A DNA stretch of 10,399 nt, from positions 1-10,399 of the forward strand of contig CALCPB010000038.1 in assembly GCA_937897665.1 (NCBI GenBank). The letters are read 5' to 3'. The notes below the pieces were generated by a model. The model made no database searches. It worked only from the letters and a program-made list of their open reading frames with translations, and was not told the origin of the DNA. Shown piece by piece: positions 2,587-9,285 of this stretch (position 1 is the first letter of the stretch; each line of letters opens with the position of its first letter). The translations under genes and the position numbers were made by a program. The DNA is from an uncultured Halomicronema sp. (lineage in GTDB: Bacteria > Cyanobacteriota > Cyanobacteriia > Phormidesmidales > Phormidesmidaceae).

Positions 2587-3051
2587 GTGACTGCTGATCG
2601 AGAGCTGGTGATGCCGTTGGTGTCTGCCCTCTCAAGTGCTTTGCATAAGCCAGACGCCATGCCCACTGATCCAATGAGACGAATGATCGAAGAGACCACA
2701 GCCGCGTCTTCGGTGACCTCTGAGCTATTGTGTCAGACATTAGATGCGGTGCCGACAGCCGTCTACATCAAAACTAGGGAGCACCGCCTGGTATTTGTGA
2801 ATGATGCCTGTTGTCAGCTATTGGGGCGATCGCGCCGGGAGCTGATCACCGTTTCTGAGGCAGAAATTTTATCGACCGCGACGGGCCAGAGCCTGCAGCA
2901 TCAAGACGAAGCCGTTTGGCAAGGGCAATTAGCAACTGCCGCCGCTGAAGCTGAAATCCTAGTCGTACCGACGTCAGCCCCCGCAAACGGGCAGTCGCTA
3001 ACTCGCCGCACCCAGCTCGCCGCCGATGGTCGAGCACTACTGTGTTGTTAA
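2587..3051 (+). CDS. Fragment 1 of the broken kinase: N-terminal PAS domain
   Basis: 154 codons from GTG 2587 to the first premature stop (TAA 3049-3051). AAGGA at 2568-2572 lies 14 bases before GTG; ATG 2611 with a weak GAGAG upstream is an alternative start. After about 45 polar residues the sequence LDAVPTAVYIKTREHRLVFV, then NDACCQLLGRSRREL, is a PAS core in which a small ligand or redox group could bind. The segment after it (QSLTRRTQLAADGRALL) fits the last PAS strands, and the stop falls at the end of that fold. If translated alone it would be a free PAS domain without output. Confidence 0.6.
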   Translation: MTADRELVMPLVSALSSALHKPDAMPTDPMRRMIEETTAASSVTSELLCQTLDAVPTAVYIKTREHRLVFVNDACCQLLGRSRRELITVSEAEILSTATGQSLQHQDEAVWQGQLATAAAEAEILVVPTSAPANGQSLTRRTQLAADGRALLCC

Positions 3052-3111
3052 GAGCCGGCAGTAACGCCGCCGCCACTGTCCGCTAGCACTGCCAACCCTT
3101 CGCTCTGGCAA

Positions 3112-4125
3112 ATGCCTCAACTGCAGGCACTCTTAGCCAACGTGCCCGCTGTGATTTATCAGCTCTGTCGGCAGCCAGGCGGGCAGCTGCAGTTCACGTT
3201 TGTCAGTCCTGGGGCCAATGAAATTTTTGGTGTCGCGTCTAGAGCCATTCTGGTGAACGCGGAGCAAATTCTGCAGTTGTTGCACCCGCTTGACCGCCCC
3301 GCGTTTGACCACTCTTTAGCGGCCTCAGCCGCAAAGTTGACACCCTGGTACTGGGAAGGACGCTACTACCAGCCTGATGGCAAAGTGGGTTGGATTCAAA
3401 CCGCCGCCCGTCCTCAGCTTTTGCCACGGGGGGCAGTCGTTTGGGATGGCTCGATGATGGATGTGACGAGTCGCAAGCAAGTGGCCGCAGCCACTATTGA
3501 ACAAGCGGTGATGGCTCAGGCGCTAGCGGATAATGAAACGCGTTTTCGCACCCTAACCGCAGCGATTCCGGGGGCGATTGTGCAGCTCCGGGTGCACGAT
3601 CGCGACTACACGATCGATTTTGTCAGCGATCGCATCGAAGCCATTACCGGCCTCCCGCCTGCGTTGCTCATGGCCGATGCCCACGCTTGGTTTGAGCAAA
3701 TGCATCCGGCTGACTATCAGCAGCTACAGGCAACTATCAGTACCGCTGTCACGACGATGAGTGCTTGGCACTTTGAAGGGCGACTCACGACCCGCTTAGG
3801 GGAAACCCGATGGTGGCGCATTGATGCGCTGCCGGGGCCGCAAGCGGCAGGAGACATCGTTTTCTATGGCGTCGTGCTAGATGTGACTGACCGTAAAACG
3901 ATTGAAGAAGCCTATCAAGAACACGATCGCCAGTTACGGATGGCGCTGCAGGTCTCGGGCATGGGGGTTTGGACTTGGGATATGGCCACCAATCAAATGG
4001 CGTGGACGACAGAACCTGGTACGTTGTTTGAGGTCTCGGCGGTCAGTTTTTGCGATACCTTTGATGCCTATTTGCAAAATGTGCATCCGAGCGATCGTGA
4101 CTTGGTTAAAGCTGCTGTGAGCTAA
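3112..4125 (+). CDS. Fragment 2 of the broken kinase: three PAS domains (third truncated)
   Basis: 337 codons between the first and second premature stops; the frame is open from 3052, and ATG 3112 is merely the first Met after the stop, with no Shine-Dalgarno. Three PAS units are visible, at residues about 1-120 (ANVPAVIYQL to DGSMMDVTSRKQ), 140-263 (AAIPGAIVQL to YGVVLDVTDRKT) and 270-337 (LRMALQVSGMGVWTWDMATN). The last is cut in mid-fold just after HPSDRDLVKAAVS, and its remaining strands continue in the same frame beyond the stop. The HPxD and final DVTxRK motifs are typical of cyanobacterial PAS-PAC repeats. Confidence 0.6.
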   Translation: MPQLQALLANVPAVIYQLCRQPGGQLQFTFVSPGANEIFGVASRAILVNAEQILQLLHPLDRPAFDHSLAASAAKLTPWYWEGRYYQPDGKVGWIQTAARPQLLPRGAVVWDGSMMDVTSRKQVAAATIEQAVMAQALADNETRFRTLTAAIPGAIVQLRVHDRDYTIDFVSDRIEAITGLPPALLMADAHAWFEQMHPADYQQLQATISTAVTTMSAWHFEGRLTTRLGETRWWRIDALPGPQAAGDIVFYGVVLDVTDRKTIEEAYQEHDRQLRMALQVSGMGVWTWDMATNQMAWTTEPGTLFEVSAVSFCDTFDAYLQNVHPSDRDLVKAAVS

Positions 4126-4170
4126 GCTGTCATAGATGGGCAAGACTATCATATCGAATTTCGGCTGCTG

Positions 4171-4764
4171 TTGGGTGACGATACTGTGCTTTGGTTTGGC
4201 GAACGGGGCGGGGTGTGGCGAAACCTTGATGGGATGCTGCTGGGCCTCATGGGCACGGTGCTGGATATCACCGATCGCATGACGGCGAGTGCGGCTCTAA
4301 AGGAAAGTGAGGAACGCAATCGCACGTTAATCAACAACATTCCAGGGGCAGTCTATCGCTGCAAAGCGGATAAAGATTGGACGCTGATTTTTCAGAGTGA
4401 TGCCATCTTTAACGTGACTGGCTATGCCATTGATCATCCGATTCATCACGAAGACTGGCGACTCATTCATCCCGACGATCGCGCGCGCGTCGATCACGAG
4501 ACTACCGCCGCGATCGCTCAGCGCCAACCCTTCGAGGTGGAATATCGCTTGCTGCATGCCGATGGCGGCATTCGCTGGGTGCTCGAAACCGGTCAGCCGA
4601 TCACTGACGCGACGGGCACTGTCCAGCTAATTGACGGCGTGTTGACAGACATTACCCGTCGTAAGCAATCGGAGACCCGTCTGCAAGACCTCGCAAGTCG
4701 CGAGGGGCTCATCAACCGTATCTCTAACCAAATTCGGGAGTCTTTGGAACTACAGCCCATTTAG
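4171..4764 (+). CDS. Fragment 3 of the broken kinase: end of one PAS plus a complete PAS
   Basis: The frame is open from 4126 to TAG 4762-4764. TTG 4171 is only the first start-like codon; the homologous coding begins directly after the stop (AVIDGQDYHIEFRLL). It holds the C-terminal strands of PAS four (GLMGTVLDITDRM), a full PAS five (INNIPGAVYRCKADKDW to DGVLTDITRRKQ), and the first helix of the GAF domain (GLINRISNQIRESLELQPI). Independent translation seems unlikely because the start would fall inside a PAS fold with no ribosome site. Confidence 0.5.
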   Translation: MGDDTVLWFGERGGVWRNLDGMLLGLMGTVLDITDRMTASAALKESEERNRTLINNIPGAVYRCKADKDWTLIFQSDAIFNVTGYAIDHPIHHEDWRLIHPDDRARVDHETTAAIAQRQPFEVEYRLLHADGGIRWVLETGQPITDATGTVQLIDGVLTDITRRKQSETRLQDLASREGLINRISNQIRESLELQPI

Positions 4765-4773
4765 CAAACGACG

Positions 4774-6102
4774 GTGCAAGCAGTACGGCAACAGCTAGCC
4801 ACCGACCGCGTTGTGGTCTATCGCTTTTGCCCTGATTGGACGGGGGAAGTGATTGTCGAAGATGTGGCGTCGCCCTGGCGGTCAACCCTCGGTGAGATCG
4901 GCACCGACAACTGTTTTCCGGGCGGCTTGGCCCAGTATTACGAAGCAGGCCAAGGACGCGCGATTGATGATATTTATCAGACTGGATTTGACGCCTGCCA
5001 CCTGCAGTATCTGGAAACTCTGCAGGTGCGAGCCAACCTGATTGTGCCAATCCTACTGAAAAAGCAGCTGTGGGGGCTTTTGATTGCCCACGAATGCCGT
5101 GGGCCTCGCCATTGGACCGATAGCGAGATCGAGCTACTGGCCGCGCTGGCGGGGCAGGTGGGGTTGGCCATCGGGCAGGCTGACCTGTTTCAACAGGCGA
5201 CGGAAAACGCGACTCGGGCGCGACAACAAGCTGCCGACCTAACCGCGACCCTGGCAGAACTCCAGCGAACTCAAGCCAAACTGGTGCAGACCGAAAAGAT
5301 GTCGAGTCTGGGGCAGCTGGTCGCGGGGGTGGCCCATGAAATCAACAATCCCGTCAGCTTTATTGATGGCAACATTCTGCATGCCGCCGATTATGCTCAA
5401 GACTTGCTTAAGTTGACCGAGCAGTATCAGGCGACCTATCCAAATCCTCCAGAAGCGTTAGCACAGCTAATTGCCAAGGTCGATCTCGAGTTTCTCGCTG
5501 CTGACTTTCCTAAGCTGTTGAACTCAATGCGGGTGGGGGCAGAACGCATCAAGACCATCGTGGCTTCCCTCCGCACCTTCTCGCGAATGGATGAAGCCGA
5601 AATCAAGGCCGTCAATATCCATGATGGGCTAGACAGCACTCTGATGATTCTGCAGCATCGTCTCAAAGCGGATGGCGGTCGTCCCAAAATCACCCTAACC
5701 CGACGCTACGACGATTTACCCCTGGTAGAATGCTATGCCGGCAAGCTCAACCAAGTATTTATGAACTTGATTAGCAATGCGATTGATGCGATCGAAGAGC
5801 AGATAGCTGCTGACAATCAAGGGCCGCTGCCAACCATCAGCATTACGACCGAAGCGCTGTCACCAGAGCAGATTCGCATCAGCATCAGTGACACTGGCTC
5901 AGGCATGACTGCAGCCAAACGCCAGCGCATTTTTGAACCCTTTTATACGACGAAACCAATCGGCAAAGGAACGGGCATTGGCCTTTCGATCAGCTATCAA
6001 ATTGTGACCGAGCATCATCACGGCACGTTAGAGTGTGAATCGCAAGCCGGGCAGGGCACAACTTTTCACGTCACGATTCCGGTGCAGCAGGGCACCACCT
6101 AA
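4774..6102 (+). CDS. Fragment 4 of the broken kinase: DXCF cyanobacteriochrome-type GAF plus histidine kinase core
   Basis: 442 codons from GTG 4774 to TAA. The GAF domain (residues 1-140) lacks only its first helix. It has DNCF at residues 45-48 and DACHLQYL at 73-80, so both the DXCF Cys (C47) and the canonical Cys-His (C75-H76) are present, followed by VRANLIVPIL and LWGLLIAHECRGPRHW. This is the pattern of bilin-binding cyanobacteriochromes, many of the DXCF class sensing blue/green or related colours. After a coiled linker (about 145-178) comes HisKA with the phospho-acceptor His at nt 5335-5337, then HATPase_c with N, G1 and G2 boxes. Autophosphorylation is expected; no response regulator gene follows in the window, so the partner is unknown. 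With the upstream stop in place, this piece would need internal initiation, for which I see no ribosome site. Confidence 0.7.
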   Translation: MQAVRQQLATDRVVVYRFCPDWTGEVIVEDVASPWRSTLGEIGTDNCFPGGLAQYYEAGQGRAIDDIYQTGFDACHLQYLETLQVRANLIVPILLKKQLWGLLIAHECRGPRHWTDSEIELLAALAGQVGLAIGQADLFQQATENATRARQQAADLTATLAELQRTQAKLVQTEKMSSLGQLVAGVAHEINNPVSFIDGNILHAADYAQDLLKLTEQYQATYPNPPEALAQLIAKVDLEFLAADFPKLLNSMRVGAERIKTIVASLRTFSRMDEAEIKAVNIHDGLDSTLMILQHRLKADGGRPKITLTRRYDDLPLVECYAGKLNQVFMNLISNAIDAIEEQIAADNQGPLPTISITTEALSPEQIRISISDTGSGMTAAKRQRIFEPFYTTKPIGKGTGIGLSISYQIVTEHHHGTLECESQAGQGTTFHVTIPVQQGTT

Positions 6103-7215: not shown

Positions 7216-7692
7216 CTATGGCTTGAGCGCTTCATCCAAAACTTGACGAGCCGTTTCGGCCTGCGATCGCGCATCACGATACTTCAAATTACTCTGAGCA
7301 AAGCTCTTAAGCGTTTTGAAGCCGTCTTTCAGCTCAGTCACCTGAGCTTCGGTGATGGGCTCATCGATAAAAAGCAAATCGATCAATTTTCTAATTTGCA
7401 GGGCGTCTTCTCGCGAGTCCTGCATTTTCATCTTCAACGTGGCTAAGTGGCTCAAGACTTGCACAGCCTCGACAACTGCATCTTCTTGGCTTTTGACATC
7501 CGAAGTTGTTTCAGGCGTTTTCACTTCAATAAACTGTTGAGGGTCGAATCCGTTAGCCAGATTAGTCGGCAATTTGCCATCATCCATCAGGTCTACCAGC
7601 TGATCCATCGCTTTTTCTCGGGCTTTGCGAGAATCTTTACCGGACACCGCTAAGATCACCTCTGGGCTCTGAGCCAGCGTATATTGCACCAT
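7216..7692 (-). CDS. Conserved-looking hypothetical protein, all-helical, cytosolic
   Basis: 158 residues from ATG 7690-7692 (MVQYTLAQSPEVILAVSG) to TAG. No signal peptide or membrane segment is seen. After an N-terminal beta-like stretch the rest is rich in Ala, Lys, Glu, Asp and Leu with heptad-like spacing, especially residues about 65-158 (SHLATLKMKMQDSREDAL, then LKDGFKTLKSFAQ), suggesting a helical bundle. I do not recognise the family. There is no Shine-Dalgarno, as is common in cyanobacteria. An AGTTC-ATAA-GAACT inverted repeat lies 15 bases upstream, and a TAAAAT box (7721-7726, minus) just beyond it could be the -10. It is flanked by usp and psb29 on the same strand but separated by non-coding DNA, so it is probably transcribed alone. 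Confidence 0.8.
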   Translation of the reverse strand: MVQYTLAQSPEVILAVSGKDSRKAREKAMDQLVDLMDDGKLPTNLANGFDPQQFIEVKTPETTSDVKSQEDAVVEAVQVLSHLATLKMKMQDSREDALQIRKLIDLLFIDEPITEAQVTELKDGFKTLKSFAQSNLKYRDARSQAETARQVLDEALKP

Positions 7693-9142: not shown

Positions 9143-9214
9143 GGGCGATTAGCACAGTGGTAGCGCGCTTCCTTCACACGGAAGAGGTCACTGGTTCGAA
9201 CCCAGTATCGCCCA
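9143..9214 (+). tRNA. tRNA-Val, anticodon CAC
   Basis: A complete cloverleaf of 72 nt. The acceptor is GGGCGAT/ATCGCCC (7 pairs). The anticodon arm is CTTCC-TTCACAC-GGAAG, with anticodon CAC at 9175-9177 reading GUG. The variable loop is AGGTC, and the T arm is ACTGG-TTCGAAC-CCAGT. The discriminator is A, and CCA is not encoded. The D arm GCAC-AGTGGTA-GCGC has one A-C mismatch (position 12 with 23). Confidence 0.95.
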
Positions 9215-9285
9215 TCATTGATGGCTAGCTTGGTCAGTCACCTTGCGCACTCTTGCCTTGAGAATGCCGAGGGCTCAGCTATTTG

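Follow-up and report, generated by a model that had tools for sequence, protein, structure and literature searches.

The closest counterparts of the gene described here are orthologous sensor histidine kinases in relatives of the source organism, in which full-length, uninterrupted copies are usual. In the nearest genome compared, that of a member of the same genus (G002), the frame is open over 1188 codons; five more aligned relatives have open frames of 1145 to 1160 codons, and the orthologous protein P0001 is likewise full length. The window, a stretch of 10,399 nucleotides from an uncultured Halomicronema sp. (contig CALCPB010000038.1), carries what alignment identifies as the same gene, of similar length, on its forward strand at positions 2587 to 6102, as a multi-PAS, GAF, HisKA and HATPase sensor histidine kinase frame of 1171 codons plus a terminal stop. 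Unlike the open frames of G002, of P0001 and of Halomicronema sp. CCY15110, the copy in this draft is interrupted by three in-frame stop codons: TAA at 3049 to 3051, TAA at 4123 to 4125 and TAG at 4762 to 4764. Errors in the consensus of a draft genome can pose as pseudogenes, and we consider it likely that the three kinase stops are errors of this kind in a fragmented draft; the gene of the organism itself is probably an intact PAS/GAF sensor histidine kinase.

The draft genome, in which the window is contig 38, has a size of 5.2 Mb in 1047 contigs and is 90.34% complete and 3.15% contaminated. The DNA identity of the window to L019, a locus labelled as an uncultured Halomicronema metagenome-assembled genome, is 93.4% across 7986 aligned positions and 89.7% across 1132 more, and the corresponding G002 locus (L010) is identical to L019 across 4326 bases. 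At the protein level the window copy is 95.6% identical to that of G002 and 91.0% identical to P0001; the CCY15110 locus (L022) shows 69% identity to G002. Among eight loci examined by tblastn, two are not open: L102, in which the end of a contig cuts the gene, and L020, from Leptolyngbya sp. SIOISBB, which like the window copy is a broken orthologue, with proteins of 472 and 676 amino acids under that name. The SIOISBB copy differs from the one described here in the nature of its lesion, a change of frame at about 7257-7261, close to G002 residue 481, without stops.

Internal stops across the draft genome

The search for similar lesions covered 101 loci of G002 (slightly overlapping, and amounting to about 1.75 Mb of a genome of some 7 Mb) and 62 loci of the draft (426 kb). 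Among the draft loci are short tRNA loci, part of them within contigs taken whole; L128, a piece of the window, was then set aside. Contigs were chosen chiefly by way of kinase or tRNA searches, and because these searches named most of the contigs the 119 surveyed frames do not form a random sample. The criteria for a frame were at least 150 amino acids, 60% coverage and 86% identity; duplicates were dropped, as were frames in which nonsynonymous codons exceeded 1.2 times the synonymous ones, and stops were counted between 12% and 93% of the frame.

When G002 frames are read in the draft, 11 internal stops are found in nine of 119 genes, together with two frameshift flags, one of which is close to the end of its frame and the other in a frame covered to 64% only. 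When draft frames are read in G002, one of 121 contains a stop and one frameshift flag is raised. Beside the kinase gene, the broken frames of the draft are those of transketolase, LepA/EF4, TrmFO, a WcaI-family glycosyltransferase and two other histidine kinases, a further frame whose best matches, all below the cut-off, are peptidoglycan peptidases, and a doubtful frame (L113, L244:11398-12354) that has no family match and in which the stop probably precedes the actual start. The stop in TrmFO comes late, at codon 441 of 475, and another TAG lies three codons away from a counted stop, just outside the position cut. The same type of lesion is therefore present in unrelated and constrained genes of the draft, with a ratio of nonsynonymous to synonymous change (omega) of 0.041 for transketolase, 0.016 for LepA and 0.049 for TrmFO.

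These stops are embedded in clusters of unusual differences. Within 12 codons of the stops there are 32 missense codons compared with 8.9 expected (permutation mean 7.2), and none of 5000 permutations reaches 32. The excess holds when the kinase gene is removed (24 compared with a mean of 4.46 in the permutations, none of 5000 reaching it) and when both the kinase and the doubtful frame are removed (20 compared with 4.06, 0 of 5000), and for the kinase gene alone the count is 8 compared with 2.72, a value reached in 67 of 5000 permutations. The transketolase TAG lies in a patch of 71 bases (L144, 13500-13570) that differs from G002 at 17 sites, T being the draft base at 12, and that resembles the tract around the second kinase stop described below. 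In LepA/EF4 (L145, 18116-19864; patch near 19300) the TAG is flanked by A>C and C>A changes within a frame that has seven amino-acid-changing codons in its whole length, and in the WcaI-family glycosyltransferase (L147, 2148-3473) a missense patch of mixed changes near 2310 holds two TAG codons at a distance of three codons from each other. A separate cluster, at L146 13095-13106, contains four T>A, one C>A and one C>T in 12 bases, in a region where one frame is open for more than 1 kb, and is possibly a patch without a stop.

The 11 stop codons comprise 10 transversions and three transitions, and eight of the nine stops that are one base away from the G002 codon are transversions (the doubtful frame included); the expected share of transitions is 0.645 at the kappa estimated from the whole set of differences (P 0.0016) and 0.463 at a kappa of 2 (P 0.033). 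The residues replaced (Leu, Gln, Tyr, Glu, Ser, Lys and Arg) follow no pattern.

Clustered substitutions and housekeeping genes with stops are the features that this draft shares with consensus errors posing as pseudogenes. Because other genes of the draft, basic metabolic ones included, show similar stop-bearing patches, the kinase stops are most likely wrong-base patches as well; sequence error had been listed among several options in a first-pass annotation of the window, and the draft-wide occurrence of stops within missense patches favors it. We infer that the patches arose in sequencing or assembly and not in the cell. Clusters of wrong bases, substitutions rather than indels, would have entered short stretches of the draft, with thin support there, in the form of few or poor reads, as the probable cause; within coding frames they would be seen as local bursts of missense changes, some of which would by chance be stops.

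Frames with several stops and no frameshift invite explanations in terms of recoding or split genes, and the survey of this draft suggests that patchy substitution errors can yield them. The excess of missense changes around stops, combined with the reverse-reading control, could be used to screen drafts ahead of claims of recoding or pseudogenes. Literature searches that combined metagenome-assembled genomes with premature or internal stop codons and sequencing errors found no paper.

The three stops of the kinase gene

The presence of three in-frame stops with no frameshift, as first reported for this frame, is confirmed by translation (1172 codons, with the terminal TAA at 6100) and by alignment with G002. 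There is no frameshift in the kinase frame, since its sole length difference from the intact G002 frame is an in-frame 3-base difference at 3065-3067.

Alignment of the three codons with ten relatives (G002, P0001 and eight others) identifies the residues that the stops replace. The first stop, which is two bases away from the G002 codon, is at a site that is Leu in all ten, and the codon that precedes it differs as well, with Cys where the relatives have an aromatic residue (10/10, either Phe or Tyr). At the second stop the residue is Gln in eight of ten, with one Leu and one Ser as the exceptions, in agreement with the Gln that the first-pass annotation had expected there. For the third stop the same source had offered Leu or Gln, of which the relatives have Leu (10/10); this stop is a lone transversion, and its one missense neighbor is 12 codons upstream, where nine of the ten relatives have Thr.

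The second stop lies within a tract at 4017-4195, across which 16 differences from G002 in a row are all T in the window (12 C>T and four A>T). This is the longest run of differences with the same target base among 10,480 differences in 141 kb, the runner-up being 7, and in 300 shuffles the longest such runs were of 6 to 12. The A>T changes are the odd part of the run: four of the five A>T changes in the gene are at 4133-4195, and all four change a residue. Among 143 A>T changes, there are only two places where at least four fall within 63 bases, namely this tract and the transketolase patch. Taking the three kinase stops together, six of the 19 window-specific missense changes are within 12 codons of a stop, compared with one of the 19 that are specific to G002.

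Selection on the kinase gene

The frame had been described as "fully conserved," which overstates its condition: 51 of the 1167 codons compared between the window and G002 are amino-acid-changing, alongside 139 synonymous base differences. When the missense changes are polarized with P0001 as the outgroup, the window and G002 receive 19 each and 13 are ambiguous; with five distant relatives instead, the figures are 23, 15 and 13, and we rely on the P0001 version because it uses the closer outgroup. Divided among the four pieces of the frame in order, the counts for window and G002 are 3/8, 7/4, 8/2 and 1/5, so that it is the third piece, downstream of the second stop, that tilts most clearly toward the window.

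Omega, computed segment by segment against the intact G002 gene by the NG86 method, as had been suggested earlier, is 0.105 for the whole gene and 0.368, 0.107, 0.093 and 0.036 for the successive pieces; in a background of 117 genes the median is 0.086 and the quartiles are 0.041 and 0.117. Branch omega models with one distant outgroup each were uninformative because of the great length of the outgroup branches and the several estimates lying at their bounds. Relaxed selection on the kinase gene is absent. Amino-acid change is not raised on the window branch (19 versus 19, with omega near background), and no frameshifts accompany the stops, the in-frame 3-base difference being the only one of length. 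The view that neutral decay is a poor fit to this frame, taken at first from the lack of frameshifts, is borne out by these comparisons.

Weighing the explanations

Several observations weigh against consensus error as the source of the kinase stops. Ten of the 12 C>T changes in the tract at the second stop are at third positions, and part of the run may for this reason be true divergence; the first 11 differences of the run are all C in G002, so that their direction is not proven. Missense neighbors are few at the first stop (four) and the third (one), with 1.04 expected at each, and the patches at these two stops are weaker than that of the transketolase stop. Across the draft, the excess of synonymous changes near stops is small (40 compared with 37.6), and random error should add synonymous changes too. 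The four T>A changes in L146 form a cluster without a counted stop, and with this and the differing changes among the patches the errors lack a common signature. The difference in stop counts between the draft and G002 hinges on the 12%-93% position limit: in a looser pass (120 amino acids, 80% coverage, position unlimited) stops are found in 11 of 85 frames in the draft and in seven of 93 in G002, although the G002 stops are near frame ends in seven of seven cases, and the frames without a stop or frame-breaking indel number 64 of 85 one way and 75 of 93 in reverse. The omega of the first piece, 0.368, exceeds the upper quartile of the background; the polarized changes there, 3 for the window and 8 for G002, indicate that this high value does not come from the window branch. 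Finally, the case is built on assembled sequence.

The main rival is recent and true inactivation, which would make the gene a pseudogene so young that little beyond the nonsense codons shows; we regard this as unlikely, but as the alternative that deserves most attention. Large multi-sensor kinases are often dispensable, the draft, with 76 HATPase matches, has scope for redundancy, and a very recent loss predicts no relaxation of selection. The numbers of changes are harder to accommodate. The neutral ratio of nonsense to missense is 0.0523 at a kappa of 2, and about 57 missense changes would be needed for three nonsense changes; were all 19 window missense changes neutral, 0.99 nonsense changes would be expected, and the probability of three or more is 0.079, falling to 0.009 with eight. 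Inactivation of the kinase gene also leaves unexplained the stops of transketolase, LepA and TrmFO and the missense patches that surround stops.

Real clustered mutation, in which error-prone repair or a strand-specific mutator wrote the T-ward patches with the stops as by-products, is very unlikely. It would suit the two strand-coherent patches, in which 16 of 16 differences in the window and 12 of 17 in transketolase are toward T, but other patches differ, with A>C and C>A in LepA and mixed changes in the glycosyltransferase, and selection should purge such damage to transketolase, for which a single copy was considered. Remoter still is a bolder form of this idea, in which stops and T-ward patches alike are real, a patch-wise and strand-specific mutator hits even housekeeping genes, and the cell survives by read-through or by intact alleles on several genome copies.

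Read-through of the stops by a suppressor tRNA or an altered code, such that the whole kinase is made, was among the options first raised for this frame and is scarcely plausible. Selection on the frame seems undiminished and internal stops are present in several genes, as read-through would have it; however, TAA, TAG and one TGA replace seven kinds of residue rather than each stop standing for one residue, a UAA- or UAG-reading anticodon is present in none of the 24 tRNA genes that ARAGORN read from 25 RNA-search matches, an incomplete set, and the missense patches beside the stops are left unexplained.

We give almost no credence to the pieces being separate genes for PAS proteins and a GAF-kinase protein, a routine split that had also been proposed: candidate starts do follow each stop (ATG 3112, TTG 4171 and GTG 4774) and omega is lowest in the GAF-kinase piece (0.036), but the full frame is present in six aligned relatives, and 42 of the 43 best of 1552 matches to the full-length query are of 960-1200 amino acids with 81-98% query coverage. 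Only three proteins of the size of a PAS piece were found at E <= 1e-60, in a database clustered at 90% identity in which fragments may hide within clusters, and separate pieces are on this count unlikely as a rule. The second stop, moreover, is inside the stretch matched by a FixL sensor model (residues 472-606 of the G002 protein) and so seems to cut a PAS-like domain, and a start at GTG 4774 would cost the GAF domain its first nine profile positions.

Organization of the frame and its surroundings

By Pfam, the first three pieces contain PAS folds and the fourth contains GAF, HisKA and HATPase_c. The HisKA match is partial (profile positions 2-24 of 66), and the HATPase_c domain is at 5743-6087 on the forward strand. 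The start of the kinase is uncertain, as the intact P0001 begins at a Met equivalent, by counting, to window position 2659.

The GAF domain, at 4774-5172 on the same strand (profile positions 10-133), is nearest to phytochrome-type GAFs, which are also its closest sequence matches among solved structures (6bhn, E 8.5e-32), with the Cys-His pair aligned in the window. We take the best of these matches, PDB 6bhn, 6oap and 3vv4, to be cyanobacteriochrome-type GAF domains, and the aligned Cys is presumably the chromophore site; bilin binding is putative. The identification of the protein as a light sensor, made at first sight of the sequence, is supported in so far as the GAF is of phytochrome type with its Cys-His, a likeness that is one of sequence only. 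In its overall make-up the gene looks ordinary, a multi-PAS kinase gene with a GAF of phytochrome type. Among the aligned relatives, the GAF Cys is lost in L100 and the GAF His in L021.

Downstream of the kinase gene, a tRNA-Val (CAC) is located at 9143-9214 of the window, and the match to L019 stops just beyond it, at 9216.

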